DNA of 41,207 nt from a virus. Below, in pieces: positions 1-41,207 of the stretch. The translations under genes and the position numbers were made by a program. Every line of letters begins with the position of its first letter. Positions within the stretch are counted from its first letter, which is position 1. The notes beneath the pieces are model-generated. The model was not told where the DNA came from. It was given only the letters and a program-made list of their open reading frames with translations, and did no database searches. The stretch lies in IMG/VR virus record IMGVR_UViG_3300022701_000029, positions 1-41,207 of that record. One strand, written 5' to 3'.

Positions 1-99
1 CACGCCAATGGCTGCCGCTATACCGAAACTATCGATGAAGGTAAAGCTGGTCGTTCCATTAGTGAACAGATCAAGCTACGTATCGATGCTCGAGCACGT
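1..99. repeat. Left copy of 99-bp exact terminal direct repeat
   Basis: Bases 1-99 are identical to 41109-41207. The repeat lies inside the ligase reading frame, which is continuous across the join. A coding repeat of this length is typical of the k-mer overlap left when an assembler closes a circular or circularly permuted genome. A true short terminal repeat cannot be excluded from the sequence alone. Confidence 0.95.
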
Positions 100-4374: not shown

Positions 4375-4387
4375 GGTATACCTCCGA

Positions 4388-6131: not shown

Positions 6132-6137
6132 TCTCTC

Positions 6138-17287: not shown

Positions 17288-17577
17288 GATTTAATCTCCT
17301 GTTTTTCAGCAAGGGTCTTAGCGGCCATCTTGCCAGTGTTTATTACTGATTCAATTTCCCCTTCGAGGGCTTTAATCGCCATATCTTGGCGTTTAATCTC
17401 TAGTAGGGCACTTACATCCTCTATCGATGCGGCTTGAAAGGCTTCGAACATTACCTGTCGTTTCTCACCGATAAAAGGTCTGATGAACGCCTCGTAAGCA
17501 TGCTCTGCCTGCTTACCGCGTTTCTGTTCTTCTTTAAGGCGATCTAAAAGATCTTTACCTTGTAACTCCTCCATCAT
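17284..17577 (-). CDS. Coiled-coil protein between portal and scaffold (97 aa)
   Basis: Nearly all helical and charged (MEELQGKDLLDRLKEEQKRG at the start). No family recognised. It overlaps the genes on both sides by 4 bases (ATGA). Possibly a head-assembly helper; the two adjacent Met codons at the start leave one-residue uncertainty. Confidence 0.6.
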   Translation of the reverse strand: MMEELQGKDLLDRLKEEQKRGKQAEHAYEAFIRPFIGEKRQVMFEAFQAASIEDVSALLEIKRQDMAIKALEGEIESVINTGKMAAKTLAEKQEIKS

Positions 17578-19832: not shown

Positions 19833-20812
19833 TATAACCCCATTAATCCGAAGATGTCCATCACCCTCGGGTCAAGTTTTGTAGCTTCTCCCGAACCACT
19901 GTATGGAGGGAATCCGTATGACCAGTCTTCAATAACCTCTGGGGATTCACCTACAAGCATATCACCTAAACCTAAACCACCAAGTAGTGGTATCATCTCT
20001 GGTACATGTGCATAATTTGCTGCGTCACGTACTTTACCCAATCCTTTAGACACCGCACCACCTATAGGATTCTGTGGAATAGGTGATACTGAACCATAAG
20101 CCATTGGTGCGGCTATCTCGTCTAACTGAGGAGCTCTAAGACCACTCAGTGGCATCGCACCTACGGCAAATGGTGCTTTACCTGTTTTTGCCATAGAGTT
20201 AAGGTATTCTTCGACAGGCATACCTCGACCACTATTTAATGCTTTATTGAGTTCATCACCTAATACAACCGTCTCATGGTTATCTGCTAAGCCCATTGGG
20301 TGATATACTTCCTGCCCTGGGTCGAGACGATATAGCATGTTCGCCTCATCAATCTTATCAAAAGTCCGAAGAGGTATATCCTCTGGATCAAGTACGCTAG
20401 CAGAATAGTGATGATTACTTTGTAATGGTCCACGACCTTGAAACATATTGTTGTGGCTCAGTACATACATTGGCTCGTCTAATATAAACCGTGAATCATC
20501 AACGAACTTTTCCCAATGTTCTACACCCGGATATAAATCATCCATCATGTATCCATACAGACGATTTATATCATCCTCATATTTTGGATCACCTGTTTTG
20601 GCAAATAAATACTTTGCCTTTTCATATTCTGTTACCGTGTCCATGATCTCATCCATATTGAGATCATTTCGATGATCGGTTAGGTAACCTATATCCCCTC
20701 GCATCTTATGAAACACTTGTGATTCAGGTGAAGCGTCTTTCAAGATTTGCTCGCCTAAATCATCATACTCTTTCTGAGTAATGTGTTTCACTATGCCGGT
20801 GATCTTACCCAT
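19832..20812 (-). CDS. Hypothetical protein between terminase and portal (326 aa)
   Basis: Not recognised. Residues about 1-110 are charged and helical, with KEYDDLGEQILKDASPESQV near the start. The middle has HYSASVLDPEDIPLRTFDKI and DPGQEVYHPMGL. The last 100 residues are Gly/Pro-rich with a hydrophobic stretch (MIPLLGGLGLGDMLVG). No catalytic motif or signal peptide. Position suggests a head-related or ejected protein. One-base overlaps on both sides show it belongs to the late operon. Confidence 0.55.
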   Translation of the reverse strand: MGKITGIVKHITQKEYDDLGEQILKDASPESQVFHKMRGDIGYLTDHRNDLNMDEIMDTVTEYEKAKYLFAKTGDPKYEDDINRLYGYMMDDLYPGVEHWEKFVDDSRFILDEPMYVLSHNNMFQGRGPLQSNHHYSASVLDPEDIPLRTFDKIDEANMLYRLDPGQEVYHPMGLADNHETVVLGDELNKALNSGRGMPVEEYLNSMAKTGKAPFAVGAMPLSGLRAPQLDEIAAPMAYGSVSPIPQNPIGGAVSKGLGKVRDAANYAHVPEMIPLLGGLGLGDMLVGESPEVIEDWSYGFPPYSGSGEATKLDPRVMDIFGLMGL

Positions 20813-22215
20813 CAGGTGATCATCCTATTTACTTGGCTATAGTCAATTGGGTCATTGTCAAATCCGCCAATGACATTATCACTACCTACAGCACCTAGTA
20901 CCATGTATTGTAATGCGTCGGCAACGTGTGAATATCGGCCTTTATCTGGTTTATCCATGAATCTGGCTTCACCCGTTACTTGCATACGCTTATACTTATA
21001 ACCACCCGCCAGAGCTTTGCGTACCATCTTGGCCTTTGGGCCTACTACGAATGCTGGTTGTCCTCCGAAGTCGAGACGCTGCATATAGTCTGCTACGACT
21101 TCTCTCCGTATGGAGAAATCATTCGTGTACGTCGGCCAAGCTGTTATACCCTCACTTTCTAGAATCATGAAAGGTGTACGCTCATCGGTCTGAGCTCTTT
21201 GCTCTCCCGCGGGGTCTGCGTAGATCTCCAGCGGGTGGTTACCATACTCTTTATTCAATTTCTTCCTGAGAAGTCGACCAAAGTTCTTAGCACCCATATC
21301 TTCAGTCGTCAACTCATCAATAATCTGTACCTGACCCGTCGCAGTAATTCGTCCAATGACTGCTGCTGGAGTCAATCCGAAGTCAATACCTACATAAATA
21401 ATACTGGACTTCGGCACATCGCCCAACACTTCACGATAATGAGTGTCGTCTTTATATTCTGGCCAAACTGGCTTACCGTCGCTCACGAAGCCATACATCC
21501 CGTGGACATATACGTTAATCCACTCTTTGTCCTTACCACCGCACATATTCTTGTAATAGTTCGCTGGCAAATTGTCAATGTTCTCTGCATGCTCTGACAA
21601 ACCACTCGGCTGGTCATAGTGCTTCCAATTATCTGGACAATCTTCTTCAAATACCTTGTACCACCAATGGTCAGTGTCGGGTGGGTTTGTGTCCATGATA
21701 ACGCCCCACCATGAAGCACCGCCCTGACGCCTCGACGGATATCGTCCAACACGACCTTGGAGCATGTCGACAACAGATTTTGGTATCTCTTTTGCCTCAT
21801 TAACCCATCCACCTGTAAGCTCTAACGATAAGAGCTTCTTCACATCGTTCGGTTTGTCGAGTGCTCTAAACAACACTTCTAGATACAATAACGTCCCATC
21901 TGGTAATGGTCTAATTATCGTATGTGACATGTTACCTTGTGACCATGTACCGATTTTCTCTGGGTACCAGTCTGTCCATGTCTTTATTGTTGTATCAACT
22001 AATTCACGATAAGTATTACGAATTATAACCCATCGTGACCGTCTAACCCGATTGTGTGCTTTCTGTGCCATGGCTCGTAACATGATCTCATGACACATAC
22101 CCACTGACTTACCAGAACCGATCGGGCCTTTTATACCACGTACAAAGGCCGTCTCCATGTCAGTGTCTTTATGGAGCTGTAGAAGTGTTTTGGAAGGGAA
22201 ATACTCAACTTTCAA
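20812..22215 (-). CDS. terL: Terminase large subunit
   Basis: ATPase and nuclease that packages the genome. Walker A is GPIGSGKS (residues 30-37). Walker B with catalytic Glu is LTGGWVNEA (Glu140). The RNase H-like nuclease domain begins with VGIDFG (Asp278), followed by IYADPAGEQR (Asp334) and SHVADALQY (Asp433). Length of 467 is normal. It overlaps the small-subunit candidate by 11 bases. Together with the coding terminal repeat this fits a headful-type, circularly permuted genome, though the packaging mode is not proven. Confidence 0.95.
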   Translation of the reverse strand: MKVEYFPSKTLLQLHKDTDMETAFVRGIKGPIGSGKSVGMCHEIMLRAMAQKAHNRVRRSRWVIIRNTYRELVDTTIKTWTDWYPEKIGTWSQGNMSHTIIRPLPDGTLLYLEVLFRALDKPNDVKKLLSLELTGGWVNEAKEIPKSVVDMLQGRVGRYPSRRQGGASWWGVIMDTNPPDTDHWWYKVFEEDCPDNWKHYDQPSGLSEHAENIDNLPANYYKNMCGGKDKEWINVYVHGMYGFVSDGKPVWPEYKDDTHYREVLGDVPKSSIIYVGIDFGLTPAAVIGRITATGQVQIIDELTTEDMGAKNFGRLLRKKLNKEYGNHPLEIYADPAGEQRAQTDERTPFMILESEGITAWPTYTNDFSIRREVVADYMQRLDFGGQPAFVVGPKAKMVRKALAGGYKYKRMQVTGEARFMDKPDKGRYSHVADALQYMVLGAVGSDNVIGGFDNDPIDYSQVNRMIT

Positions 22216-22510
22216 GAGCTAAAGCCTCACCCTCAATAATCGTCGAATACTCATCTTCTTCCAAGTCTACAGTTAAGCCATGAGCGATTAACTCAAGCTC
22301 ATCCATATCGCCGCCAATCCTAGCCGAAATGTCGATGCTCTTAACTTCTGGAGTCGTATATTTCAACATCGTTTTTACAGCATCAAGCTGTACATTTATA
22401 GGCGCGTCCTGGTCGTGGGCGATGTCCGCTGCATGCACGATCGGGTGATAGCCGGGGTATCGGTCCTGGATCAAGCGGAGTAGTTGCTCACCCGTTTTGA
22501 TCGCTGACAT
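22205..22510 (-). CDS. Terminase small subunit candidate (101 aa)
   Basis: First gene of the late operon, directly before terL. RYPGYHPIVHAADIAHDQDA and DAVKTMLKYTTPEVKSIDI resemble the oligomerisation part of podovirus small terminases, which select the packaging site. The C-terminal third is acidic. A clear N-terminal HTH is not obvious, so the protein is shorter than many relatives. ATG at 22510 follows GAGG by 6 bases; a perfect 11-bp hairpin sits 18 bases upstream of it. Confidence 0.7.
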   Translation of the reverse strand: MSAIKTGEQLLRLIQDRYPGYHPIVHAADIAHDQDAPINVQLDAVKTMLKYTTPEVKSIDISARIGGDMDELELIAHGLTVDLEEDEYSTIIEGEALALES

Positions 22511-22527
22511 GGATACCTCTATTTGTT

Positions 22528-28202: not shown

Positions 28203-30452
28203 ATGTCTAACGAGATACCTTCAGCCCTGAGTGCGGGGTTGAAATTCTTGCGATATATCGGTGAACCATATGGTATTATTCCGATAACAATCAAGAACGG
28301 CACTAAAAGACCAATGGTCAAGATTAAAGATAATCTTGGCAATGTTCACAGACTCGATGATAAAGAATATCTAAAAGCTTGGGATGATGCCGAATACTAT
28401 GGTATCGTAACTTCCCCACGATTCAATCCTGATATCAAGAAGCAACTCTTCATTATTGATGTCGATGTGCCGTCAGAAGGAGGTCATGATAATGATGGAC
28501 GTATACACCTTGACAAGCTCAGTATTCCTGACACTTTCACTGTTACAACTCCTAGCGGTGGCATTCACTATTATTTATGGACTGATCTCGGACAACGCTT
28601 CAAACACGCACCGTATCCTGGAATTGACATTGTACACATGTCTCCTTTCTATGCTGTTGGTGTGGGTAATACTGGTTATGAGTTAATTAATAAGAAGCCA
28701 ATTGCCGATGCGCCGATAGAGCTGATTGAAGAGTTACGTTATGTCAATGAACAGGGTGAAACAGAAAAGAGAGATGATAAGACCTCGATTCTGAATGAGA
28801 TTATGACCAATGGTATCCCATCAGGTCAACGTCATAATACTATCCTACGATTAATGGCCAGCCTCGTACGTAGGCGTATTCCCAAAACCGAAGCAATGGC
28901 TATCGCTGAGTTAGCTATTGGTAAGTGTGACCAATCAGATGGATTACCTACACTTGAAGAAGCATCGGCACAGTATGATGATGCCATGCAGAAATTCACA
29001 GTTGGTAGTACGCTTGACGATCTCCTCGATGATTTGGTTCTACTAACAGGTGATAACGTTGTTAAGCGTATATCTAAACCTACAGAGGTGGCTATATCAG
29101 CTACAGCTCTGTCGAATGTATATCCTCAACGTGTACCTAACCTGAATCTACCACCTAACAAGAACGGTGACTTCCAGATGTCGCCATTAGGTAGAGTATG
29201 GCTTGACTCACCAGATAAGAAACAAGCCAGTACTGAGGGTTACTTCCCTTGTCCTGATCCAATATTCAATCGCCATGGTAATAGGTTCTTCAATAAGTAT
29301 CAACCACCAATGATACAGACAGTGACGAATTACGATCAAATAGCGGTTCGTAAATTTCAAGATGTGTTTAAGCGTACTTATGGTCCTATCTATGAGGACT
29401 GGTTGAAGATCATGAAATACAAATGGCTTCACCCATACACTAAGTTTGCATGGAGTATCTACCTGACATCGAGATATGAAGGAACAGGTAAAGGTCTTAG
29501 TTGGAAGCTGACACAAGAGTTATTCCATAAATCAAATTGTTTGAGTCTCAATGTTAATGACATTGGGGCACGATTTAACGTGTCTCTATCAGAGGCAACG
29601 TTCGCACTTGTCGACGAAGCACATGGTGCCAGAAACCCATCACACCGAAATAATATGATGAATGCCATTAAGAGAGTCATTACTGAAGAGACGATGACAA
29701 CTGAAGGCAAGAATAAAGAGAAACAGATCGGTGTCGAATCTTATTTCTTCATGTACATATTCTCTAATGACCGTACAGCTTTGGAAATCTCTAAAGACAG
29801 TAGACGTTTTCTAGTCTACCATGATGAAGAGCCGAAGACCGTTGAGCAAGAAAAACGAATGTACCAAGTTGGTGATATGCTACGTGATCCAACTAAAGTG
29901 GCCGACTTCTTATCGTGGATGATACAAGAAGTCGACTGCTCTATAACGGATGATTTCAATCCGTTGGGCGTCGCTCGTAAGACCGATGATCTTATGTCCT
30001 CTAGTCAAGATGTATACCTGTCTCCTGAAGCACAAAAAGTTAAAGATGATATAGAACACCGTTCCAACATATTCTTTGCGGATTTGGTTACTAGAACCCA
30101 GCTTGAGTATTATAGCTTATGTGAATTTGGTCAAAACAAGGCATATAAGATTGTGCAAGAGCTGTTAGATCGTAGTGTAGTGAAAACAATATCTGCACCT
30201 ACACCTAAGAATCCTCGCCAGGTTAAACGATATAATCTTGAACCTCTTGATATGACTTTAGCAAGAGACGGTATGGATATACGTGACTCATATAAAATGT
30301 CAGATGGAAAACGTCAGACACCAATACTATGTGTCCGTAACCATGATGAATACGAGATCATGGATAAATCAGAGCTAAAGAAGAGATTCGATGCAGAGAT
30401 CGGAAAGAACGGCCCTCGTAAATCAGGCGGTCACCTTACTACTGTTGATTAA
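28203..30452 (+). CDS. Bifunctional primase-polymerase / SF3 helicase (749 aa)
   Basis: The N-terminal domain is an archaeo-eukaryotic primase (PrimPol): FIIDVDVP gives the DxD pair (Asp86, Asp88) and SGGIHYYLW gives the conserved His122. The C-terminal domain is an SF3/DUF5906-type helicase: Walker A EGTGKGLSW (Lys430), Walker B FALVDEAHG (Asp471, Glu472), then a sensor strand FFMYIFSND and an Arg-rich segment SKDSRRFLVY. This one protein would prime and unwind at the fork. The ATG has a GGGAGAG site close upstream. It is followed by an 18-bp palindrome. Confidence 0.88.
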   Translation: MSNEIPSALSAGLKFLRYIGEPYGIIPITIKNGTKRPMVKIKDNLGNVHRLDDKEYLKAWDDAEYYGIVTSPRFNPDIKKQLFIIDVDVPSEGGHDNDGRIHLDKLSIPDTFTVTTPSGGIHYYLWTDLGQRFKHAPYPGIDIVHMSPFYAVGVGNTGYELINKKPIADAPIELIEELRYVNEQGETEKRDDKTSILNEIMTNGIPSGQRHNTILRLMASLVRRRIPKTEAMAIAELAIGKCDQSDGLPTLEEASAQYDDAMQKFTVGSTLDDLLDDLVLLTGDNVVKRISKPTEVAISATALSNVYPQRVPNLNLPPNKNGDFQMSPLGRVWLDSPDKKQASTEGYFPCPDPIFNRHGNRFFNKYQPPMIQTVTNYDQIAVRKFQDVFKRTYGPIYEDWLKIMKYKWLHPYTKFAWSIYLTSRYEGTGKGLSWKLTQELFHKSNCLSLNVNDIGARFNVSLSEATFALVDEAHGARNPSHRNNMMNAIKRVITEETMTTEGKNKEKQIGVESYFFMYIFSNDRTALEISKDSRRFLVYHDEEPKTVEQEKRMYQVGDMLRDPTKVADFLSWMIQEVDCSITDDFNPLGVARKTDDLMSSSQDVYLSPEAQKVKDDIEHRSNIFFADLVTRTQLEYYSLCEFGQNKAYKIVQELLDRSVVKTISAPTPKNPRQVKRYNLEPLDMTLARDGMDIRDSYKMSDGKRQTPILCVRNHDEYEIMDKSELKKRFDAEIGKNGPRKSGGHLTTVD

Positions 30453-30749: not shown

Positions 30750-32591
30750 ATGCTTAACCTCGACGAACTCTCCGCAACGGATGTTGAAACCGCACCGACA
30801 GTAAAAACCGATAAGCCTTACGCACTTGAGCCTTGGCGTGTTAAACAAGGTAAAGCACAGATCACTTGTGCTACATTTGCAGGACTATTTAATGGTACTG
30901 CAGAACACCACGATAACTTTCATGAGAAATTATTAGAGGCACTTGAGGCCTTACGTGGTAAACATATTGTTTGCCATAATGCTTTATTTGATGTGGCTTG
31001 GTTATTAGCGACAGTCAAAGACTATGACTTGATTAATAGTATCCATTGGCTTGATTCCAGTCTCTTATCCAGATGGTTAGAAAATGGCCAACAAGCTGAG
31101 AAAGAGAAGCTTAGTCACTCATTGATTAATTGTTGTAACCGTCATCTTAAAGACCACCCCGATATCGATAAGTTCAATGATGTTAAATTCCAGACCGTTA
31201 CACCTGGTGATAACTATGAGTATTGGTTAGAGCGTAACAAACTCGATACTCGTATGACTCTTGACTTATTCAAAGTCATGTGGAAGAAGTTACCTGTTGA
31301 GCAACAACGTGGGTTCTTGATTGAGCAAAAGTGTATTGCACCTATCGCTAAAGGTTGGTTACAAGGTATACCATTTGATGCGGTCTATTTGAGTGATCTA
31401 CATAAGAAACTGGAAGTTAAAAAGCAACAACTCTGTAAAGAGCTTGGTGTTGATACAAAACTACTGGGTTCTCCAAAACAAAAGCAAGCTCTTATATTTG
31501 GTCAGTGGAAACTGAAACCCATCAAATATACACCAGCCGGTAACCCATCTACGGCACATGATGTGTTAATGCGTATGCATCAACAAACTAATGATTCACG
31601 CTTTGATAAATTAATGGCTGCCATTAAGATCAATACGATTCAATCCAAATATACTTCTGGATTCCAACGTACTCTCAAATATGTTGGAGAAGAAGTACTT
31701 TATGGTAGTCCACGTATTTTTGGTACTTATACTGGTCGTATGACTTACTCGAATAAGACTACGAAAAAGCAAGAGCATCAAGTATCAATAGCTCTTCATC
31801 AAGTGCCGAGGAAAGCGAAGAGCATCAAGCATGGTATGAAGATACCTGAAGGCATGGCACTTATAGCTGTAGATGCTAACTCACAAGAACTCCGTTGGGT
31901 TGCTGAAAAGTCAATGGATGATAAGCTTATTGAAGGTTATAAGCAAGGTAAAGATCTACACTCAGATATGACGGCCTCCATATATGGTAGACCATATGAA
32001 GAGGTTGTGGAGGGCAATAAGAATGACGTTAAAGAGATCGTCGAAGAGAGACAGTCTGGTAAGCTCCTTAATCTATCTTGTCAATACCGAATTGGTCCAC
32101 CAGCCCTTGCCGAAAAATTCTTCACCACCTATGAAAAAGATATTGATATTGGTACAGCGAGAAGATACCTTAGTCTATACAAGAGACAGTATCCTGGAGT
32201 CGTTAGATACTGGGACGACTCAATTGCGTTGGCGCGTCAAAAAGGATACGCCGAAACAGTGGGAGGCCGTCGTTACAAGATTACCAAGTTCGACTGGTCA
32301 GGGGAATCATCAGCCATTAATTTTCCAATTCAGGGCAGTGGAGCTGATCATACATATGCTACAATAGCTATGTTGAATAAGAAGTATCCATTCCTTATTC
32401 TAGTTCTTCAGCTACATGATGGACTATATTACTTCTGTCCTAAAGATATAGTTATCGATGTAGCTAAAGAAATTATGGAGATCACTAACACGGATGTGTA
32501 TGTCAAAATCTTTAAGAAAGACTTACCGATTAAATTCCCATTCGATGGTGGGTATTCATTCGAATCATTTGCTAAAATCACTAATCTTTAA
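30750..32591 (+). CDS. Family A DNA polymerase with 3'-5' exonuclease (613 aa)
   Basis: Exonuclease motifs: DVE (Asp11, Glu13), CHNALFD (Asn77, Asp81) and NKLDTRMT (Asp166). Polymerase motif A is AVDANSQELRW (Asp375), motif B RQSGKLLNLSCQYRIG (Arg434, Lys438, Tyr446) and motif C QLHDGLYYF (His556, Asp557). NFPIQGSGAD precedes motif C as usual. The Glu of the common HDE motif C is Gly here. Both catalytic metal-binding Asp residues are kept, so activity is expected. GGAG lies 5 bases before the ATG. This is the replicative polymerase; it must accept modified dCTP if the modification model is right. Confidence 0.92.
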   Translation: MLNLDELSATDVETAPTVKTDKPYALEPWRVKQGKAQITCATFAGLFNGTAEHHDNFHEKLLEALEALRGKHIVCHNALFDVAWLLATVKDYDLINSIHWLDSSLLSRWLENGQQAEKEKLSHSLINCCNRHLKDHPDIDKFNDVKFQTVTPGDNYEYWLERNKLDTRMTLDLFKVMWKKLPVEQQRGFLIEQKCIAPIAKGWLQGIPFDAVYLSDLHKKLEVKKQQLCKELGVDTKLLGSPKQKQALIFGQWKLKPIKYTPAGNPSTAHDVLMRMHQQTNDSRFDKLMAAIKINTIQSKYTSGFQRTLKYVGEEVLYGSPRIFGTYTGRMTYSNKTTKKQEHQVSIALHQVPRKAKSIKHGMKIPEGMALIAVDANSQELRWVAEKSMDDKLIEGYKQGKDLHSDMTASIYGRPYEEVVEGNKNDVKEIVEERQSGKLLNLSCQYRIGPPALAEKFFTTYEKDIDIGTARRYLSLYKRQYPGVVRYWDDSIALARQKGYAETVGGRRYKITKFDWSGESSAINFPIQGSGADHTYATIAMLNKKYPFLILVLQLHDGLYYFCPKDIVIDVAKEIMEITNTDVYVKIFKKDLPIKFPFDGGYSFESFAKITNL

Positions 32592-32989: not shown

Positions 32990-33284
32990 TTTTATGGGTA
33001 TTGATATTTATAGTAACCCTCAAATAGGTCATGATCAGATGACTGACCTTTATGGCCTTAGTAACCCTAGACCTGGTGGTATTATTTGTCATCGTGCTGG
33101 AATTGATATGCATATAAAGGCACGAGAAGCTGAATGGTTAGCTCGACAACAAAACCATATAGCTGACGAATTACGATATGGTTTAGGTGTTCTTGACGTT
33201 GATGTCAAAGGAACATTTAAAGAGAAGACATTCCGTGAAGAGCTCCAAGACGAAATAAACGAATGGTTAAAGGACGCAATATGA
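32931..33284 (+). CDS. Hypothetical protein (117 aa, or 96 aa from the ATG at 32994)
   Basis: The ATG at 32931 has AAGGA (32921-32925) upstream, while the ATG at 32994 (MGIDIYSNPQIGHDQM) has no ribosome site but would avoid a 59-base overlap. Contains PRPGGIICHRAGIDMHI and a helical region (REAEWLARQQNHIADEL). The C-terminus is acidic. Not recognised. Confidence 0.5.
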   Translation: MDKSLSASQISMRRSTLASNFMGIDIYSNPQIGHDQMTDLYGLSNPRPGGIICHRAGIDMHIKAREAEWLARQQNHIADELRYGLGVLDVDVKGTFKEKTFREELQDEINEWLKDAI

Positions 33285-33979
33285 AAACTCCAATAGCACT
33301 AAGTTGGTCTCGACTGAATACATATCTCGAGTGCCCGATGAAATTCAAGTCACAATATATCGACAAGACTTATCCCGATGATAGTGATAACCCACATTTC
33401 GCCAGAGGTAACCGGATACATAAGCAGTTAGAGGACTACATTAACTTTAAACGGAGCGCTGAGGAGACATTTGGGAAGCCTCCAGCTATGTCCGAGGAGT
33501 CAAAGAACGTAGTACCTATCATTGATAAAGTATTCCAAAACTTTGACCATGTATTTGCTGAAAGGCAATTGGCTACAGATATGGACTGGAATCAGTGTGA
33601 TTGGTTTGCTAAACCAACCACAGTCAAGTATCGCTGTATCATTGATGGTCTAGCCATACGTGATGCCGAAGGTTTGAGTATGGATTTCAAGACTGGTAAG
33701 GTACGTGAGTATACAGCAGATCACGGTCAGCTCCATCTCTCATCTGCTATGATCATGAGCACGATGCCTGATCTGGAAAAGTTGAAGAACACGTATCTCT
33801 TTGTAGACCATAAACAGTCTATCTCGATTGAGATCAAGCGTGCCGATGTGCAGAGTGAGATTGACTACTTCAATGAGAAGTATGAAGAAGTCAATGCTGA
33901 TGAAGAGTTCAAACCAACGAAACACAAGTACTGCGGTTTCTGTTTGATCAAAGACCAGTGTCCATTGTATAAGAGGTAA
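33281..33979 (+). CDS. RecB/Cas4-like PD-(D/E)XK nuclease with probable Fe-S cluster (232 aa)
   Basis: SWSRLNTYLECPMKF is the opening helix with the first Cys (18). His47 (GNRIHKQLEDYI), Asp122 (CIIDG) and DFKTGK (Asp135, Lys137) form the nuclease core. C-x2-C-x5-C at 218-227 (CGFCLIKDQC) with Cys18 gives the four-Cys set of AddB/Cas4-type 4Fe-4S nucleases. Likely a 5'-3' exonuclease for recombination or host DNA recycling. ATG at 33281 follows AAAGGA by 6 bases and overlaps the previous stop. Confidence 0.85.
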   Translation: MKTPIALSWSRLNTYLECPMKFKSQYIDKTYPDDSDNPHFARGNRIHKQLEDYINFKRSAEETFGKPPAMSEESKNVVPIIDKVFQNFDHVFAERQLATDMDWNQCDWFAKPTTVKYRCIIDGLAIRDAEGLSMDFKTGKVREYTADHGQLHLSSAMIMSTMPDLEKLKNTYLFVDHKQSISIEIKRADVQSEIDYFNEKYEEVNADEEFKPTKHKYCGFCLIKDQCPLYKR

Positions 33980-33981
33980 TC

Positions 33982-34296
33982 ATGGCTAATAAAGAAGCAC
34001 CGATCCAAGCATGGCTACGTACTGAGTTAAGCAAGATATATGGTGATAAGATTGTTTACATCAAATATCCTGCAAGCCAATACTCACAGCGTGGCGTCGC
34101 CGATCTAATCTTCTGTATTCATGGGATGTATGTTGCCATTGAAGTGAAGACTGAGGTCGGAAAGCCCACGGCCCTCCAACAGAAATTTGGAGAATCTGTT
34201 CAAAAGGCTGGTGGTTATTTTGAAATCATGTATGGGAAAGATCGAAATGTCATCAAACGAATCGTCGACTACATCGAACCTGTCATCTGCATTTAA
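33982..34296 (+). CDS. VRR-NUC domain nuclease (104 aa)
   Basis: A single-domain PD-(D/E)XK nuclease: RGVADLIF (Asp41) and YVAIEVKTEVGKPTALQQ (Glu54, Lys56, Gln66) are the VRR-NUC signature. Stand-alone phage members of this size can cut Holliday junctions or similar structures. It sits between the RecB-like nuclease and an SNF2 helicase, a common phage arrangement. Confidence 0.85.
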   Translation: MANKEAPIQAWLRTELSKIYGDKIVYIKYPASQYSQRGVADLIFCIHGMYVAIEVKTEVGKPTALQQKFGESVQKAGGYFEIMYGKDRNVIKRIVDYIEPVICI

Positions 34297-35650
34297 GAAG
34301 ATTGGTTATGAGTTTTACAACTATGAACCTTTTGCACATCAGTATGAAACTATCATGTTCTTTCTTAGGTTTAAGAAAGGGTATTGTTTCAATGATCTAG
34401 GTTCTGGTAAAACTGCTTCGTCTATTTGGGCATTCGATATATTACGCTTCACAGGGAAGGTGAAGCGTATGATGATTATATGTCCACTATCTATTATGGA
34501 AACTGTGTGGGTCAAAGAGTTGAGAAATATAACTCCACACTTGAACTATGCTATCATGCATGGCCCTAGACCTAAAAGGCTTGAAGCCCTGAATTCAAAA
34601 GCAGATGTGATTATTACTAATCATGACTGTGTTAGAACTTATCGTGATGAGATAATTAAGGCCAATATTGATATTATCGTTATCGATGAATTGACAGCAT
34701 ATAAACACCATGGTAGTGCACGATCAAAAGCCATGCAAAAGATAGCGGCACGTGCTAAGTCTGTATGGGGTATGACTGGTACACCAATAACTACTGGTGC
34801 CATGGATGCTTATGGTTTGGCCAAGGTTGTGAACCCAAAGAATTTACCTACACCATATATGACTAAGTTTCGTAATATGGTTATGTACCAGATCGACATG
34901 TATAATTATGAACATAAACCTGAGTGGGAACGTGTCGTATTTAATACTCTTCAACCAGCTATACGGTTTAAGACCGATGAATGTATAGACTTGCCACCTA
35001 TTACATTTGAGACTCGTAGAGTTAAGATGCATAAAGACACAGATAAAGTCTATAAAGACATGGTTAATCAGCAGTTGCATGAGTTAAAAGAAGGTACCAT
35101 AACTGCTGTCAATGCAGGTGTCAAGTTTAGTAAACTCTTGCAGATAGCGAGTGGCACAGTCATCGATGAAGAGGGCGTGGTGCATGAGCTCAACGTACAA
35201 CCAAAACTAGATGAGATGGAGGTAACTCTATTGGAGTCTGGTAAAAAACTTATTGTATTCACACAATTTGTGGCTACGATACATATGATTGAGAAGCATT
35301 TCAGAGGCAAGTATCGCGTCGGCACTGTGTCTGGTCAGGTACCTGTAAAGATGAGATCGAGAATTTTTGATGAATTCCAAGATGGTGACTTACAAATTCT
35401 CATTGCTCAAGTATCTACAGCAAGCCATGGTTTGACACTAACTGCATCAAGCCATATATTGTTCTGGACTCCAATCATGGGTGTTGAGAAATTCTTACAG
35501 AGTATTGCAAGAATTCGTCGTGCTGGACAAACTAAGCACCAGCATATCGTTAAACTCGAATCTTGTAGAGTTGAGACTGAGTTGTTTAAGAAGCTTGAAG
35601 GTGGTAAGCTTACTAATGACGACATCTTAGAACTCTACAAAAATCTTTAA
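34247..35650 (+). CDS. SNF2-family DNA helicase/translocase (467 aa)
   Basis: Two RecA-like domains: EPFAHQYETIMFF (Q-motif-like), NDLGSGKTASS (Walker A, Lys55), IIVIDELTAYK (Walker B, DEL in place of DEAH) and MTGTPI, then IVFTQFVATI and QSIARIRRAGQTKHQHIV (motif VI with Arg fingers). Phage-sized, with no extra domains. ATG at 34247 follows GGGAAAG; earlier ATGs (34187, 34232) are less well supported. Overlaps the VRR-NUC gene by 50 bases, so the two are probably made together and may work on the same substrate. Confidence 0.85.
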   Translation: MSSNESSTTSNLSSAFKKIGYEFYNYEPFAHQYETIMFFLRFKKGYCFNDLGSGKTASSIWAFDILRFTGKVKRMMIICPLSIMETVWVKELRNITPHLNYAIMHGPRPKRLEALNSKADVIITNHDCVRTYRDEIIKANIDIIVIDELTAYKHHGSARSKAMQKIAARAKSVWGMTGTPITTGAMDAYGLAKVVNPKNLPTPYMTKFRNMVMYQIDMYNYEHKPEWERVVFNTLQPAIRFKTDECIDLPPITFETRRVKMHKDTDKVYKDMVNQQLHELKEGTITAVNAGVKFSKLLQIASGTVIDEEGVVHELNVQPKLDEMEVTLLESGKKLIVFTQFVATIHMIEKHFRGKYRVGTVSGQVPVKMRSRIFDEFQDGDLQILIAQVSTASHGLTLTASSHILFWTPIMGVEKFLQSIARIRRAGQTKHQHIVKLESCRVETELFKKLEGGKLTNDDILELYKNL

Positions 35651-36124: not shown

Positions 36125-36952
36125 ATGTCTAACGATTTACAAGTCCCAGATTATTTGAAAGAATTGATGGAATCATCTTCAGCCGCCAAGACTGAAGACA
36201 TGGTAAGTGCTGGTTCGAGTGTACCTCGTATCTCACTTAAAGGTATGCGCTTCCGTTTTAAGGAAGACGGTGAAGAAGTTGAGGTTGTAAAAGATGATCT
36301 CGATTGTGTCATCGTTGGCATGTTACCTGAACATGGTACTGCCAAGACTTTCTATGAAGGTGCGTATAATCCTGATTCGAGCGAGCCACCAGATTGCTCA
36401 AGCTCAAATGGTGTAACCCCAGATTCATGGGTTACAAATCCCGTTCACAACAATTGTGCAACATGCCCTAATAATAAATTTGGTTCTGCCATTAGTAAGC
36501 AGACTGGTAAGAAAGCCAAAGCGTGTCGAGACAGTAAGCGTCTGTATATCGTTAAAGCCCAGGATATGAAGGATGAAAAGCCTCAGCACTGGTTGCTTAA
36601 CGTCACAGTATCAAGTCTTAAACCTCTCACTGAGTACAGTAAGAGCCTGTCAAAAGACGGCATCACAACTCCTGCAGTTGTTATTACTCGTCTGTCTTTC
36701 GATGAAGATTCTGAATTCCCAAAACTGAATTTCAAAGCTATGGGCGTTCTGAAGAAAGAAATGGCTCAGGCGTCACTCGCTATTGCTGAAGAAAAAGAGT
36801 GGGAATTTGGTCTGACCTCAAATGCTCCACAGCTTGAGAATAATAAGCAAGCGATGCCAGCCATTGAGTCAAAACCTGAAACGGATGCCCCAGCCGAGCC
36901 TACTAAGCGTGAGTCTTCTGAAGCTGTTGACGATATTCTGGAACAGTGGTAA
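36125..36952 (+). CDS. Probable ssDNA-binding protein with Cys cluster and acidic tail (275 aa)
   Basis: Residues about 30-80 are beta-rich (PRISLKGMRFRFKEDGEEVE). A cluster of Cys follows: PPDCSSSNG, NNCATCPNN and KACRDSKRLYIV, possibly a zinc site as in gp32-type SSBs. The C-terminus is acidic and ends DDILEQW, an aromatic-acidic tail typical of SSBs that dock partner proteins. Position in the replication cluster supports the role. The function is inferred from architecture, not a recognised full-length match. Confidence 0.65.
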   Translation: MSNDLQVPDYLKELMESSSAAKTEDMVSAGSSVPRISLKGMRFRFKEDGEEVEVVKDDLDCVIVGMLPEHGTAKTFYEGAYNPDSSEPPDCSSSNGVTPDSWVTNPVHNNCATCPNNKFGSAISKQTGKKAKACRDSKRLYIVKAQDMKDEKPQHWLLNVTVSSLKPLTEYSKSLSKDGITTPAVVITRLSFDEDSEFPKLNFKAMGVLKKEMAQASLAIAEEKEWEFGLTSNAPQLENNKQAMPAIESKPETDAPAEPTKRESSEAVDDILEQW

Positions 36953-36996: not shown

Positions 36997-38577
36997 ATGC
37001 GAGATCTACTACTAACTCTTGGCCATAATGCCTCAGCTATCGCTGTAGAAGATGGGAATCTAATAGCTGGTTACGAAGAAGAGCGTCTGTCAAAGATCAA
37101 GTCTGATAGCCACTTCCCAGAAAAAGCTATTGCAGAACTTGGTTTCGATGATTATGACCGAGTATATGTGTCACATTGGGAACCATTTGCTGACGTCAAT
37201 AAAATGAAGGATAAGCATTGGCAACCAAGCAAACTACCATTCGGTGCCGAAGTAATTAGTCTCAATAAAGACTTTACACACCATGATGCGCATATGTGGA
37301 GTGCTAAAGCTTTTCTGGGTGCCGACGTATCTGAAATGGATAATCCATACTATTTAGTTGTCGATGGATTCGGTAACTTTGGTGAATGCATCTCTGTATA
37401 CACATCAGATGGTGAACTTATTCACAGAGTACATGGGTACAACGGCAGCCTCGGCCTGATGTATCAATATGCCACAGCTAATATTGGTCTCAAGATGAAT
37501 GAAGACGAGTATAAGCTTCTTGGTTACGAGTCTCAAATCACTGATAAGGATGCTCTTGCACTTGAACCTGTAATCGCCGAAATCTTCCAGTATTTGACAA
37601 CTGTATTCATGTGCCCTCAGCTTGAAAACAAAGCTGACCCACTATATAATATCAGTGCTCTTGTTGAGACACAAGTAATGTGGGATGATCTACTTGAACC
37701 GTGTGAAAGAGACAAGGTTAAAGTTGCATATGTGGTTCAGTCTGTTATCGAGCGTATGCTGATGCAGATAATTCAGAAATTCCAGATTCATGATGTAGTC
37801 CTGGTTGGCGGCTGTTTCTTAAATGTGAAACTTAACTATCGTATCATGGAACGTGTTAATGGTAAGGTAGCTGTCATGCCACTAAGTGGTGATCAAGGTG
37901 CTGCACTTGGTTTATACAAGTATCATAACCCTGATTTTGTCATGCCTAAGCACTTGTTCTGGGGTAAGAGAAAACTCGAACGTGTTGAACATGAGAAAGT
38001 GATGAACTTCGATGACCATGAAGAGATGGAGTACTGGTTACATCGTCTTCTCACGATGGATCAAATCGTTAATATTGTGTGGGGAGCCATGGAATTTGGG
38101 CCTCGTGCATTGTGTCACACATCAACTATAGCCACACCCACTATGGAAAATGTGCACTATATCAATAAACTTAATGGTCGTGCAACTGTTATGCCAATGG
38201 GTCCTGTTGTGAGTGAAGGGTTTGCTGAGAATAATTTCTTGGATTATCATAAATCTCTGCGTAGTCATGAGTTTATGATTACAGCAATGGAATACCATGA
38301 TGTTGCACCCAGTATCCGTGGCGCTGCACATAACCTACCACATGGTGAAGGATTTACTGGTCGTCCTCAAGTAATTGGTTCACACGACCCTCTTATGAAG
38401 GTGATGGGTAAATCTCTGGACGAGTTCGGTATTCTTATCAATACAAGCTTTAATATACATGGTGTCCCTATCGTATATGACAGCAATGATGTTCTGAAGT
38501 GTGTCAAGTATCAGGATGAGAACGATACAGCTGATCGTGTTTGGACTTTAGTTTATACAGGAGATGAGCATGTCTAA
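36997..38577 (+). CDS. NodU/TobZ-family O-carbamoyltransferase (526 aa), probable DNA-modification enzyme
   Basis: Family members move a carbamoyl group from carbamoyl phosphate, via carbamoyl-AMP, to a hydroxyl. N-terminal Kae1-like domain: LGHNASAIAVEDG (8-20), EEERLSKIK, THHDAHMWSA (metal-binding His95, His96, His99), VVDGFGNFGE (121-130) and VLVGGCFLNVKLN (268-280). C-terminal YrdC-like domain: MEFGPRALCHTS (365-376) and LINTSFNIHGVPIV (480-493). The usual GNRSILADPR and REPFRPFAP segments are altered here (ALCHTSTIATPT; RATVMPMGPVV). It is the first gene of the nucleotide cassette and has an AAAGGA ribosome site. With a hydroxymethylase-like gene nearby, 5-hydroxymethylcytosine is the likely acceptor. 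Confidence 0.88.
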   Translation: MRDLLLTLGHNASAIAVEDGNLIAGYEEERLSKIKSDSHFPEKAIAELGFDDYDRVYVSHWEPFADVNKMKDKHWQPSKLPFGAEVISLNKDFTHHDAHMWSAKAFLGADVSEMDNPYYLVVDGFGNFGECISVYTSDGELIHRVHGYNGSLGLMYQYATANIGLKMNEDEYKLLGYESQITDKDALALEPVIAEIFQYLTTVFMCPQLENKADPLYNISALVETQVMWDDLLEPCERDKVKVAYVVQSVIERMLMQIIQKFQIHDVVLVGGCFLNVKLNYRIMERVNGKVAVMPLSGDQGAALGLYKYHNPDFVMPKHLFWGKRKLERVEHEKVMNFDDHEEMEYWLHRLLTMDQIVNIVWGAMEFGPRALCHTSTIATPTMENVHYINKLNGRATVMPMGPVVSEGFAENNFLDYHKSLRSHEFMITAMEYHDVAPSIRGAAHNLPHGEGFTGRPQVIGSHDPLMKVMGKSLDEFGILINTSFNIHGVPIVYDSNDVLKCVKYQDENDTADRVWTLVYTGDEHV

Positions 38578-38983
38578 AGAGTTTAAGAAAGTCCTTGAAT
38601 TTAATAGAGAAATCCTCGGTATTGGATTCAGGAATATGGATATTCTTTCAACAGATGAGATGAAGATCTCACTCAAGAGTTTATCGGAGGAAAACCTTGA
38701 ATTTCTGGAAGCGCATATGGAAGGTGATATTGTTGGCTGCATTGATGCCATGGTTGATAATATTTACTTCGCTATGGGTGTCTTGTACAAACTCGGTATA
38801 AATGACAAAATGTTTGAGAGAATATTTGCCGCAGTGCATGATGCCAATATGGAAAAGAAAAAGGGTATAAACCCTAAACGTGGCGACGGCTCAGCGGCCG
38901 ATGCTATTAAACCAGAAGGATGGAAATCTCCAGAAGATCGGATCATCGATGTCCTTTGTGATTTTGGGAGTATACATAAATGA
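38570..38983 (+). CDS. MazG-like all-alpha NTP pyrophosphatase, candidate dCTPase (137 aa)
   Basis: SEENLEFLEA (Glu40, Glu41, Glu44) and IDAMVDNIYFAMG (Asp59, Asp63) are the paired metal-binding motifs EExxE and DxxxD of the MazG / PRA-PH superfamily. VHDANMEK and KPEGWKSP are typical downstream parts of the phage group. ATG at 38570 follows AGGAG by 6 bases; the ATG at 38564 abuts it and is unlikely. In context it may cut dCTP to dCMP, both feeding the hydroxymethylase and removing unmodified dCTP, like T4 gp56 (a different sequence family). Substrate is inferred. Confidence 0.8.
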   Translation: MSKEFKKVLEFNREILGIGFRNMDILSTDEMKISLKSLSEENLEFLEAHMEGDIVGCIDAMVDNIYFAMGVLYKLGINDKMFERIFAAVHDANMEKKKGINPKRGDGSAADAIKPEGWKSPEDRIIDVLCDFGSIHK

Positions 38984-39471
38984 AGTCAATAATCGTTGAA
39001 GGATATGACGGATGCGGTAAGTCCACTCTAGCAAGGAGGCTGGGTGGATTTTTTGGTTTAGGAGTTCACATGATTGGCGGCCCGCCTAAATCAGATGAAC
39101 AAGCTTCTACAATGGCTAATTATCAGTTAGCTATAGCTGAGCATTCTAATGTGGTATTCGACCGTATTACACCATTATCAAGACTATGTTATGAAGAGGG
39201 TTTGGATGATCGCCATGTGGCGGTTATGTATGCTTACATGGACGCCATTATACGCCATAGTATTGTGATCTGGGCTACTGTGCCGAAGGTCAAGCACGAA
39301 TGGAAAGAGTACGATACTAAAGATCACATCAACAAAATCTTGGCGAACGAAGAAAATATCAAACACAAGTACCATGAGATTATGGATACTATCCCACATA
39401 TTCATTATGACTATACTGAAATGTCATTTGAAGATTTACTTGAGGAGGTAAAAGATGCTATCAACAAGTAA
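38980..39471 (+). CDS. P-loop deoxynucleoside monophosphate kinase (163 aa)
   Basis: GYDGCGKST (residues 8-16) is the Walker A loop, in the setting typical of thymidylate-kinase-like enzymes (IIVEGYDGCGKSTLARRLG). FDRITPLSRLCYEEG corresponds to the DR(F/Y/I)..S segment of the NMP-kinase fold. Length suits phage dNMP kinases. In the cassette it would phosphorylate the modified dCMP, as T4 gp1 does. ATGA overlap with the MazG-like gene. Confidence 0.8.
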   Translation: MKSIIVEGYDGCGKSTLARRLGGFFGLGVHMIGGPPKSDEQASTMANYQLAIAEHSNVVFDRITPLSRLCYEEGLDDRHVAVMYAYMDAIIRHSIVIWATVPKVKHEWKEYDTKDHINKILANEENIKHKYHEIMDTIPHIHYDYTEMSFEDLLEEVKDAINK

Positions 39472-40237
39472 CATGATCCCAGCTGAGAGAGCTTTCCGTG
39501 CAGTCAATGCACACGGTGTTACATCGGCACCACGGAGTCTTAGAATCCGTGAAGTCATTGGTTATCAAGATAGAATTGAATACCCATTTCATTCATTTCG
39601 ATTTCGTCATGATAATCTCAATTACATAAAGAAAGAATTTCTTTGGTACCTTAAAGGAGACCCTTATGATCAAAGCATATGTGATCATGCGAGCATTTGG
39701 CCGACTATTGTTCAACCTGATGGTCGTATCTTTTCTAATTACGGTTATTATTGGTTTCGAAGACTTAACAAAGATGGTGTCAACGGGCTTGGTCAGGTTG
39801 TTTGGACATTAAGAAACGATCCTGATTCTAGACAAGCTTATATACCAATGCTCGGTAAAGAACACATGTTTAGTGGTAACAAGGATGTTGTGTGTACGAA
39901 AGGGATTTTGTTCCGTATCGTTCAAGATAAGTTGATAATGATTGTCAATATGAGATCAAGCGATCTAGCCATTGGTGCAAGCATTGATTGGCCATGTTTT
40001 AGTTGGTTACATGAAATGGTTGCATTCGAGTTACAAGTCGAAAAAGGTGATTTCTACTTTAATGCTGATAGTCTACATGTATATGAGAAGAATTTCGCAT
40101 ATATGCGTGACGTAATCAATTGTACGAAAGAAGATATCGCCATTATTGAGCCACCTCGTATTACGAGTGTATCTGATTTATTACTTGGAACTAATAAGTC
40201 TGAGTTTGGTCAGTGGCTCATGGACAATCAAGATTAA
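39455..40237 (+). CDS. Thymidylate-synthase-fold enzyme, probable dCMP hydroxymethylase (260 aa)
   Basis: Landmarks of the family in order: KKEFLWYLKGD (Glu61, cf. TS Glu58), SNYGYYWF, DPDSRQA (Arg126), catalytic Cys147 (DVVCTKG), RSSD (167-170), and a C-terminal YFNADSLHVYE. Without gaps, Cys147 and Asp178 align with E. coli TS Cys146 and Asn177. Asn177 selects uracil; Asp at this place is found in T4 dCMP hydroxymethylase (Asp179). So dCMP is the expected substrate and methylenetetrahydrofolate the one-carbon donor. Start: GAGGAGG is 6 bases before the ATG. Confidence 0.85.
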   Translation: MLSTSNMIPAERAFRAVNAHGVTSAPRSLRIREVIGYQDRIEYPFHSFRFRHDNLNYIKKEFLWYLKGDPYDQSICDHASIWPTIVQPDGRIFSNYGYYWFRRLNKDGVNGLGQVVWTLRNDPDSRQAYIPMLGKEHMFSGNKDVVCTKGILFRIVQDKLIMIVNMRSSDLAIGASIDWPCFSWLHEMVAFELQVEKGDFYFNADSLHVYEKNFAYMRDVINCTKEDIAIIEPPRITSVSDLLLGTNKSEFGQWLMDNQD

Positions 40238-40240
40238 ATC

Positions 40241-40404
40241 TAGGAGCTAACCGGTGCGCTCCAGTTATTATAAATTGTTAGGCTATATAAGCCTACGGGC
40301 TAACCTGGCTGGTTTAATCTGGAGCGCTCCGGTAAGTCCTGGTAAGCATTTGAAATATAACTTTTATATAAATTTTAAGTTAAACTTTTAAAAGGACAAT
40401 TACT
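40241..40404 (+). promoter_or_regulatory. Control region B with ACCGGT palindromes before dCMP deaminase
   Basis: Contains GGAGCTAACCGGTGCGCTCC (40243-40262), identical in reverse to 22801-22820, a degenerate site TAACCTGGCTGGTTTAATCT (40301-40320) and GGAGCGCTCCGGTAAGTCCT (40321-40340). The last two are adjacent (20 bp centre to centre), as in region A. TATATAAGCCTACG (40284-40297) matches TATATAGGTCTACG of region A (minus strand). The segment from 40350 is AT-rich and leads to an AAAAGGA ribosome site. Region B therefore appears to be a homologous copy of the late-operon control region, pointing toward the deaminase and ligase genes. Confidence 0.7.
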
Positions 40405-40833
40405 ATGGGCCGTATAACTACAGACGAATTATACATGCGAATCGTCAGTGATATTGCCATGAGATCAACATGCAAGCGTCGTGCCGTGGGTGCGATAGCC
40501 ATTGATGAGAATGGACTAGTTCTAGCTACGGGGTTCAACGGCACGCCAGTTGGTACTCCTCATTGTATTGACACTCCATGTGAAGGCTCATCGGCACCAA
40601 GTGGTACTGCGCTTGATAAGTGCGATGCTGTTCATGCCGAACAGAATCTGCTCATGCAAGTACCAGATGTCAATAAGATTCATACCATTTATTGTACGGC
40701 CGAACCTTGTCGGCACTGTGCAAAGATGATTGCTAATACTCGTTGTAAACGAGTTGTCTATGAAGATCCCTATCCTGGGGCTAAACACTACGGAGATGTT
40801 ATTTATGAGCAGTATAAAGGGGTATCCGATTGA
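40405..40833 (+). CDS. dCMP deaminase (142 aa)
   Basis: Zinc site and proton shuttle: DAVHAEQNLL (His77, Glu79) and TAEPCRHCAKM (Cys102, Cys105). The N-terminal KRRAVGAIAID and GFNGTP segments are typical of deoxycytidylate deaminases. It converts dCMP to dUMP for dTTP synthesis, and in T4 the same activity balances the modified-cytosine pool. The insert CIDTPCEGSS may give a second metal or regulatory site as in T4-type enzymes. Confidence 0.9.
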   Translation: MGRITTDELYMRIVSDIAMRSTCKRRAVGAIAIDENGLVLATGFNGTPVGTPHCIDTPCEGSSAPSGTALDKCDAVHAEQNLLMQVPDVNKIHTIYCTAEPCRHCAKMIANTRCKRVVYEDPYPGAKHYGDVIYEQYKGVSD

Positions 40834-41032
40834 TGTAGTGCAGTTTCGTGCATACTATAAAGCATTTGAAAAAGATACAGATTTCTTCAATAAGCTTGAT
40901 AATTACGGTATTTACGATGCGGTTTGCGAGATTTGTAAGAGATACGATCTTACACCACCTTTACCTTCAGACTTAGTTGACGTGTCTTTAGGTCGTGTTA
41001 AAGCGGAGCTTGAAGAATATGAAAGAAAATGA
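40805..41032 (+). CDS. Hypothetical protein between deaminase and ligase (75 aa)
   Basis: ATG at 40805 (MSSIKGYPIDVVQFRAYYKA) overlaps the end of the deaminase gene by 29 bases. Helical and acidic, ends ELEEYERK. No family recognised. An upstream frame to 40730 exists but lies inside the deaminase gene. Confidence 0.55.
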   Translation: MSSIKGYPIDVVQFRAYYKAFEKDTDFFNKLDNYGIYDAVCEICKRYDLTPPLPSDLVDVSLGRVKAELEEYERK

Positions 41033-41207
41033 ATTAACTCTCTACGGACACGGTGTTTCGGGTATAAATGTATGGTCGGTGTGGAGTGAGGGGAACGTCA
41101 TCCACATCCACGCCAATGGCTGCCGCTATACCGAAACTATCGATGAAGGTAAAGCTGGTCGTTCCATTAGTGAACAGATCAAGCTACGTATCGATGCTCG
41201 AGCACGT
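41019..41207 (+). CDS. ATP-dependent DNA ligase, N-terminal part (continues at base 1)
   Basis: ATG at 41019 overlaps the previous gene by 14 bases and follows purine-rich GGAGCTTGAAGAAT. The first 63 residues are in the window. YGHGVSGINVWSVWSEGNVI and EGKAGRSISEQIKLRIDARA resemble a WGR-type domain found at the N-terminus of some phage ligases, where it probably binds DNA. The frame continues through the repeat and joins the catalytic domain described at 1-945; bases 41109-41207 are the same as 1-99. Confidence 0.88.
   Translation, partial: MKENELTLYGHGVSGINVWSVWSEGNVIHIHANGCRYTETIDEGKAGRSISEQIKLRIDARAR
41109..41207. repeat. Right copy of 99-bp terminal direct repeat
   Basis: Identical to bases 1-99, in the same orientation and the same ligase reading frame. 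Removing one copy closes a 41,108-bp circle. Confidence 0.95.

Follow-up and report, generated by a model that had tools for sequence, protein, structure and literature searches.

The window analysed here, a DNA stretch of 41,207 nt, is the closed, metagenome-derived genome of a phage carrying a five-gene cassette that very probably directs cytosine hypermodification of the type described by Yang et al. (2021), in which 5-hydroxymethyl-dC would be formed and then capped with a carbamoyl group. Nucleotides 1-99 are identical to nucleotides 41109-41207, and this 99-bp terminal repeat closes the 41-kb genome; the gene for an ATP-dependent DNA ligase of 352 aa reads through the closed junction from 40995-41207 into 100-945. 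The cassette (36997-40833) consists of five intact open reading frames on the + strand, overlapping or closely spaced, and PHROGs agreed with Pfam on the five gene families (Table 1). The first-pass annotation had named the same five genes, and all were found there with the families named; its reading of hydroxymethylation followed by carbamoylation is supported, as a prediction, by residues, homology and linkage, and neither of the sequence-level results that it had named as refuting (TS-fold protein with true thymidylate synthases, carbamoyltransferase with small-molecule enzymes) was obtained. Gene content, gene families, diagnostic residues, conserved linkage and genome closure are direct observations. 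No glucosyltransferase was found among the window proteins scanned.

Table 1. Features of the phage genome discussed in the text.
Feature	Coordinates	Strand	Evidence
ATP-dependent DNA ligase, second part	106..945	+	phrog_114 8e-60
Portal and terminase large subunit, podovirus-like	17574..22215	-	VA-RY-3: portal 43%, terminase 57%
Primase-polymerase/helicase-like protein, replication module	28203..30452	+	PF09250, PF19263
Family A DNA polymerase, linked replication module	30750..32591	+	PF00476 2.7e-43
Exonuclease, linked replication module	33263..33979	+	phrog_69 1e-18; syntenic
SNF2-family helicase, linked replication module	34187..35650	+	PF00176 1.7e-24; syntenic in relatives
Conserved 275-aa protein before carbamoyltransferase, candidate ssDNA-binding protein	36125..36952	+	present in core loci
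O-carbamoyltransferase, 526 aa, NodU/TobZ-type, predicted 5-hydroxymethylcytosine carbamoyltransferase	36997..38577	+	PF16861 6.7e-23, PF02543 3.7e-17
MazG/PRA-PH-like nucleotide pyrophosphohydrolase, 139 aa, predicted dCTP to dCMP	38564..38983	+	PF01503 2.8e-8, phrog_18404, EExxE
TMK/dNK-fold P-loop kinase, 163 aa, predicted (5hm-)dNMP kinase	38980..39471	+	AF2 and Foldseek, DR motif
TS-fold protein, 260 aa, predicted dCMP 5-hydroxymethylase	39455..40237	+	PF00303 2.7e-20, best PDB matches, residues
dCMP deaminase, 142 aa, predicted supplier of dUMP for dTTP	40405..40833	+	PF00383 9e-20, phrog_174 2.7e-36, zinc motifs
ATP-dependent DNA ligase, first part	40995..41207	+	terminal repeat, junction read-through

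Each reaction of the proposed route, the order of the reactions and the biological effect of the cassette are predicted from sequence. The MazG-like enzyme would remove dCTP, yielding dCMP, which the TS-fold enzyme would convert to 5-hydroxymethyl-dCMP. This product would be phosphorylated by the cassette kinase, a host kinase completing the triphosphate, and the phage polymerase, a predicted user of modified dCTP, would place 5hm-dC opposite G. Using ATP and carbamoyl phosphate, the carbamoyltransferase would cap the hydroxyl to give 5-carbamoyloxymethyl-dC (5cm-dC), acting either on 5hm-dCTP or, at the fork, on single-stranded DNA. Thymidine synthesis would receive dUMP from the dCMP deaminase, and the expected outcome would be genome-wide protection against cytosine-reading restriction enzymes. 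As a tentative extension, the base may be completed at the nucleotide stage, as 5-carbamoyloxymethyl-dCTP, ahead of replication and then incorporated by the polymerase; cassette and replication module would then move together, among phages with short and with long tails, because the polymerase must accept the modified dNTP. In T4, glucosylation takes place in DNA.

The linkage of the cassette genes was compared in 48 non-redundant related loci that extend 3.5 kb or more to either side of the carbamoyltransferase gene. The TS-fold gene lay no more than 5 kb from the carbamoyltransferase gene in 47 of them, and an identical gene order was found in 16 non-redundant loci, including those of two cultured phages, Xp15 of Xanthomonas and Effie of Acinetobacter. 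This indicated that the cassette is not a chance neighbourhood; the kinase recurs in it as a regular component. The cassette is complete in the cultured phages Xp15, Effie and HHU4, and a related form occurs in Bacteroides phages; the laboratory host of Effie is A. calcoaceticus ATCC 23055. A phage search at the nucleotide level returned only a single 83-base match.

The carbamoyltransferase contains Carbam_trans_N and Carbam_trans_C domains with the HxxxH, D and EFGPRAL motifs, and aligned over its full length (559 columns) with the 5hmC carbamoyltransferase purified by Yang et al. (2021) at an identity of only 39%. Residues I360, C373 and T375 occupy the positions of W408, G421 and R423 in TobZ (a mapping inferred from exact spacing in aligned PDB relatives), which were linked to cytosine modification by Yang et al. 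(2021; PMC8670742), and the purified enzyme has the identical I/C/T set. Of 76 readable relatives, 73 have Thr at the R423 position; the unlinked phage carbamoyltransferases, six of six, have Arg there, and the window protein is without this Arg, which is conserved in small-molecule enzymes. In the phylogenetic tree, the window protein nests with the purified 5hmC enzyme, apart from the cyanophage Nol-type proteins; this contrast set lies across a 100/95 branch, and support for the nearer join (17 rows) is weak at 81/48. Cyanophage Nol genes adjoin glycosyltransferase, methyltransferase or sulfotransferase genes. The window protein is predicted to be a 5hmC carbamoyltransferase of the Yang et al. 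type, and the grouping and the missing Arg agree with the earlier call of a DNA-type rather than a small-molecule enzyme. It is improbable that 5-hydroxymethyl-dC is the final base and that the carbamoyltransferase acts on another target, such as a small molecule, a glycan or RNA: such a role would fit a superfamily that mostly modifies small molecules, as cyanophage and NodU/TobZ relatives may, the neighbours of the Nol genes, and the finding that RNA and free nucleotides also serve the purified enzyme as substrates (Yang et al., 2021; PMC8670742), but it is opposed by the linkage to Asp-type TS-fold genes in nearly all loci and by the signature residues and clade common to the window and purified enzymes.

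It is also quite improbable that the cassette has decayed, or that its expression leaves most cytosines unreplaced. The sequences of the kinase and the TS-fold protein have diverged, but all five frames are intact with their catalytic motifs kept, and the IMG/VR relative L005 shows 53-68% protein identity across the whole cassette. The MazG-like protein has a PRA-PH/MazG domain with an EExxE motif, and its context suggests dCTP as substrate. The kinase gave only weak Pfam matches; its AF2 model (pLDDT 94) has a TMK/dNK-type P-loop fold with a conserved DR motif, the best Foldseek matches were YorR, deoxyadenosine kinase and thymidylate kinases, and context likewise points to 5hm-dCMP as its substrate. 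The zinc motifs HAE and PCxxC are present in the dCMP deaminase.

Residues Cys147, Thr148 and Asp178 of the TS-fold protein correspond to C146, H147 and N177 in E. coli TS, and the motifs CT and RSSDLAIGASID were found; the N177 and H147 positions were both named by Yang et al. (2021; PMC8670742). Asp occupies the N177 position in 77 of 77 linked TS-fold rows, and Asp178 is the cytosine-selecting Asp named in the first-pass annotation. The best PDB matches were the CMP/dCMP hydroxymethylases MilA and T4 dCMP hydroxymethylase, ahead of thymidylate synthases, and T4 gp42 (26% identity) has the Asp and Thr in common with the window protein, which is predicted to be a dCMP 5-hydroxymethylase. General Pfam, PHROG and NCBIfam models label it thymidylate synthase, as would be expected of a dUMP enzyme (thymidylate synthase or dUMP hydroxymethylase) in a thymidine-based modification; however, it falls short of the NCBIfam TS equivalog cut-offs, and the thymidylate synthase signature (Asn 177, His 147) is absent from it, Asp and Thr standing instead. 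Carriers also keep a separate ThyA or ThyX: Effie provides an internal control, with a canonical ThyA (CH, N; PF00303 7e-111) beside the cassette copy (CT, D), and Xp15 carries an extra ThyX. Residues, PDB ranking and these separate genes led us to reject both dUMP activities, and with 5hm-dUTP also rejected by the purified carbamoyltransferase (Yang et al., 2021; PMC8670742), a thymidine-based modification is very unlikely. The sequence of the TS-fold protein alone does not tell dCMP hydroxymethylation from methylation, and we infer the former from the linked carbamoyltransferase. Methylation of dCMP (Xp12-like 5-methyl-dC) is hardly to be expected: earlier work to which Yang et al. refer (PMC8670742) did obtain a dCMP methylase from E. 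coli TS by the Asp substitution alone, but no hydroxyl would be left for the linked 5hmC carbamoyltransferase, the purified enzyme does not accept 5m-dCTP (Yang et al., 2021; PMC8670742), and the nearest solved relatives are hydroxymethylases.

A first comparison of palindrome avoidance, as a sign of restriction-site avoidance, looked clean, but terminase relatives, used as a larger set of controls, fell into two modes. Hexamer O/E was below 0.8 in 2 of 47 carriers versus 11 of 22 cassette-free controls (Fisher p 2e-5), a threshold set after the data had been seen and applied to controls of which several are only fragments or might be modified in some other way. Palindrome avoidance is relaxed at the level of the carrier group, which favours the predicted modification. 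The window is not singled out, roughly one in two of its structural relatives that lack the cassette scoring as high, and the signal does not decide its own case.

Three Cys are invariant in the 275-aa protein encoded upstream of the carbamoyltransferase, and its C-terminal Asp...Trp tail is conserved. It was examined for an OB fold as a candidate ssDNA-binding protein: its AF2 model was poor (pLDDT 65), the best Foldseek match, PrgE, was not significant (E 0.12), and a PDB profile search gave no match. It also occurs in phages without the carbamoyltransferase (Rhizobium phages, Pseudomonas phage Rollin). The family A polymerase is 71% identical to that of L005 and 35% to that of Xp15; the portal and terminase of the window had no match in Xp15. 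By these comparisons, the structural half is podovirus-like and the replication/modification half Xp15-like, the two having different origins, and a short-tailed morphology is predicted from relationship only.

The window cassette does not represent a novel type of system, as the enzyme, its product and its domain neighbourhood had already been described by Yang et al. (2021; PMC8670742), where TS, PRA-PH and dCMP deaminase domains are the usual carbamoyltransferase neighbours. Since this neighbourhood and the Xp15 gene order precede it, the novelty first claimed was overstated; the citation given with it (Yang et al., eLife 2021) was correct. Added here are the closed genome, its halves of two origins, the kinase as a cassette member and the cultured carriers. 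No report of 5cm-dC measured in any virion was found in the open-licence library that was searched, and cytosine replacement by 5cm-dC can be checked on existing isolates of Xp15, Effie and HHU4.

The contigs of Yang et al. resemble the window in full-length homology, signature residues and neighbours (TS, PRA-PH, dCMP deaminase, MafB19-like deaminase). Their enzyme came from a metagenome contig, whereas the window is a closed genome with podovirus-like virion genes, and its kinase was identified here as belonging regularly to the cassette. Xp15 (NC_007024) has the same six-gene order (gp35-gp40) beside counterparts of the polymerase, exonuclease and helicase, but it differs in its long-tail genes and unrelated portal, and its proteins are 28-55% identical to those of the window; its annotation gives only a Nol-like carbamoyltransferase, hydrolase, DNA polymerase subunit, thymidylate synthase and deaminase. 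T4 (gp56, gp42, gp1, Cd and glucosyltransferases) has equal roles up to 5hm-dCTP, whereas the window has a MazG-like instead of a gp56-type dCTPase, a TMK-like kinase and a predicted carbamoyl cap instead of glucose. Cronobacter phage vB_CsaP_Ss1 and Vibrio phage vB_ValP_VA-RY-3 share the terminase (54-57%) and portal (43-44%) but no carbamoyltransferase, with ThyX and a PolIII-alpha-type polymerase in place of the cassette. Virion genes are swapped around a constant replication/modification module, which suggests that the chemistry is inherited with the replication machinery and not with the capsid.

The five genes that the first-pass annotation had placed in one cassette are real: the frames are intact and packed end to end, the catalytic motifs are kept in the encoded proteins, and Pfam and PHROGs assigned four of the products, as an O-carbamoyltransferase with two domains (CTase), a pyrophosphohydrolase of the MazG/PRA-PH type, a protein with a TS fold and a dCMP deaminase; the fifth, a kinase, was recognised weakly, with a score under the Pfam cut-off. 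The ends of the window form an exact 99-bp terminal repeat, and therefore the contig is either closed or carries an assembler overlap; IMG/VR records without end repeats are generally termed 'linear' and are often fragments. Joining of the ends completed a 352-aa ATP-dependent DNA ligase, whose gene spans the join and lies directly after the deaminase, as in relatives; on these two grounds the genome is taken as closed.

Coordinates of the features discussed
Feature	Record	Position	Strand	Remarks
Five-gene cassette	window	36997-40833	+	
CTase	window	36997-38577	+	
TS-fold protein	window	39455-40237	+	
275-aa protein	window	36125-36952		phrog_27714, no annotation; just upstream of CTase
Terminal repeat	window	1-99 = 41109-41207		99 bp, exact
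Virion-gene segment	window	1004-22215	minus	terminase, portal, scaffold, major head, others
Large-protein block	window	1004-6782	minus	no Pfam or PHROG match
Replication segment	window	22205 through ligase		
Sulfotransferase-like gene	VA-RY-3	21766-22521		PF13469

The purified 5hmC CTase, in the sequence given by Yang et al. (2021; PMC8670742), was 39% identical to the window CTase over 559 columns. In a maximum-likelihood tree the window CTase grouped with that of L005, an IMG/VR relative of the window, in a group of 22 rows that also contains the purified enzyme; the forks joining the window CTase to the purified enzyme have weak support (88/72 and 81/48). Six phage CTases without a TS-fold partner lay outside this group on a 100/95 branch. 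The TobZ positions W408, G421 and R423, named as modification-linked by Yang et al. (PMC8670742), were placed by spacing and correspond to I360, C373 and T375 in the window CTase, the same three residues as in the purified enzyme. Among readable relatives the R423 position is Thr in 73 of 76 and Ser in one, with Arg only in two distant MAG contigs; Arg occupies it in all six contrast phage CTases and in the solved small-molecule CTases compared. The purified enzyme requires ATP and carbamoyl phosphate, uses 5hm-dCTP but neither 5m-dCTP nor 5hm-dUTP as substrate, and prefers single-stranded over double-stranded DNA (Yang et al., PMC8670742). The CTase family also occurs on three bacterial MAG contigs (L083, L084 and L085), which probably come from phages and were binned with bacteria, because L083 adjoins the viral contig L009 in the tree.

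The best solved relatives of the TS-fold protein in the PDB match ranking were two entries for CMP hydroxymethylase, 5b6d and 5jnh (MilA), and T4 dCMP hydroxymethylase, with nearly all thymidylate synthases (TS) ranking below; identity to gp42 from the T4 record was 26%. The protein has Cys-Thr at the Cys146-His147 positions of E. coli TS and Asp at the Asn177 position. These substitutions fall at exactly the two positions, 147 and 177, that separate TS proteins of modified contigs from those of unmodified contigs (Yang et al., PMC8670742). Asp at 177 is shared by all 77 TS-fold rows found in the vicinity of genes of this CTase family, and Thr at 147 by 74; the set contains some contigs in duplicate and the window protein four times. 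Acinetobacter phage Effie serves as a within-genome control, in which canonical ThyA (Cys-His, Asn) is encoded separately from the cassette copy (Cys-Thr, Asp), and Xanthomonas phage Xp15 has a separate ThyX. Because of these residues and the separate ThyA or ThyX, the cassette protein is most unlikely to be a dTMP enzyme. Its sequence does not distinguish hydroxymethylation from methylation; the CTase partner suggests the former. Several Bacteroides-phage-type loci (L004, L034, L035, L038, L041, L047 and L055) carry two TS-fold genes near the CTase, and one copy may be a non-catalytic partner or act on another substrate, since a divergent motif (SSN..TLLPYD or similar) replaces RSxD...G.

The AlphaFold2 model of the kinase was confident (pLDDT 94), with Foldseek matches to YorR, deoxyadenosine kinases and thymidylate kinases; a profile search also gave YorR, and the P-loop and TMK-type DR motif were invariant across 23 relatives. 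This supports a nucleoside or nucleotide kinase, for which gene position suggests 5hm-dCMP as substrate. In the proposed pathway, the MazG-like enzyme would convert dCTP to dCMP, the TS-fold protein would form 5hm-dCMP, and the cassette kinase together with a host kinase would phosphorylate it for incorporation by the family A polymerase. Carbamoylation would take place either on 5hm-dCTP or at the fork, and the deaminase would supply dUMP for dTTP.

The survey covered 66 viral loci and named phages; linkage was counted in 48 non-redundant loci with at least 3.5 kb on either side of the CTase gene. A TS-fold gene lay within 5 kb of the CTase in 47 of them, and deaminase, kinase and MazG-like genes were linked in 30, 28 and 21, respectively. 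The order [275-aa protein]-CTase-MazG-kinase-TS-fold-deaminase was common to 16/48, counting the window; in one of these (L019) the kinase and TS-fold open frames overlap with their start positions reversed. Three Cys are invariant in the 275-aa family, which ends in an Asp...Trp tail, gave a poor structure model and occurs in replication modules both with and without a CTase. It could be a new family of phage ssDNA-binding proteins, a role that would fit a CTase preferring single strands.

Proteins of the virion-gene segment matched Cronobacter phage vB_CsaP_Ss1 and Vibrio phage vB_ValP_VA-RY-3, and had no match in Xp15. Those of the replication segment matched Xp15 and Effie and, except for the ligase, which alone matches both sets, had no match in Ss1 or VA-RY-3. 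The latter two carry ThyX and a PolIII-alpha-type polymerase; the CTase was absent from both and from six long IMG/VR terminase relatives in a search for which L005 and Xp15 served as positive controls. The window's portal was found in one of the 16 core-cassette contigs and that of Xp15 in seven. The modification cassette therefore travels together with a replication module and separately from the virion genes. The relationship to Ss1 and VA-RY-3 suggests a short-tailed morphology. Two proteins of the large-protein block are common to L005 and three to the podoviruses Ss1 and VA-RY-3. The sulfotransferase-like gene of VA-RY-3 lies in its replication region, adjoining ThyX and a DUF3310 protein.

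Protected cytosines were expected to relax selection against palindromic sites. The observed/expected ratio of C/G-containing hexamer palindromes was 0.92 in the window, 0.94 in T4 (first 45 kb) and 0.79-0.80 in Ss1 and VA-RY-3, and with more controls the group contrast held (2/47 against 11/22 below 0.8). This favours cytosine protection in the window only weakly, because palindromes are as unconstrained in half of its own terminase relatives.

Residues, relatives and linkage thus uphold, as a prediction, the earlier reading of the cassette as cytosine hydroxymethylation followed by carbamoylation. The system itself is of an established type: the commonest CTase neighbours in modified contigs are TS, PRA-PH, dCMP deaminase and MafB19-like deaminase (Yang et al., PMC8670742), and the neighbourhood is therefore already known. 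The kinase may be missing from that list owing to its score below the Pfam cut-off. The interest is moderate and lies in pointing out cultured phages where the predicted base is measurable: Xp15, Effie and HHU4 carry the cassette, and Bacteroides phages such as BF503P2 carry a different arrangement with two TS-fold genes.
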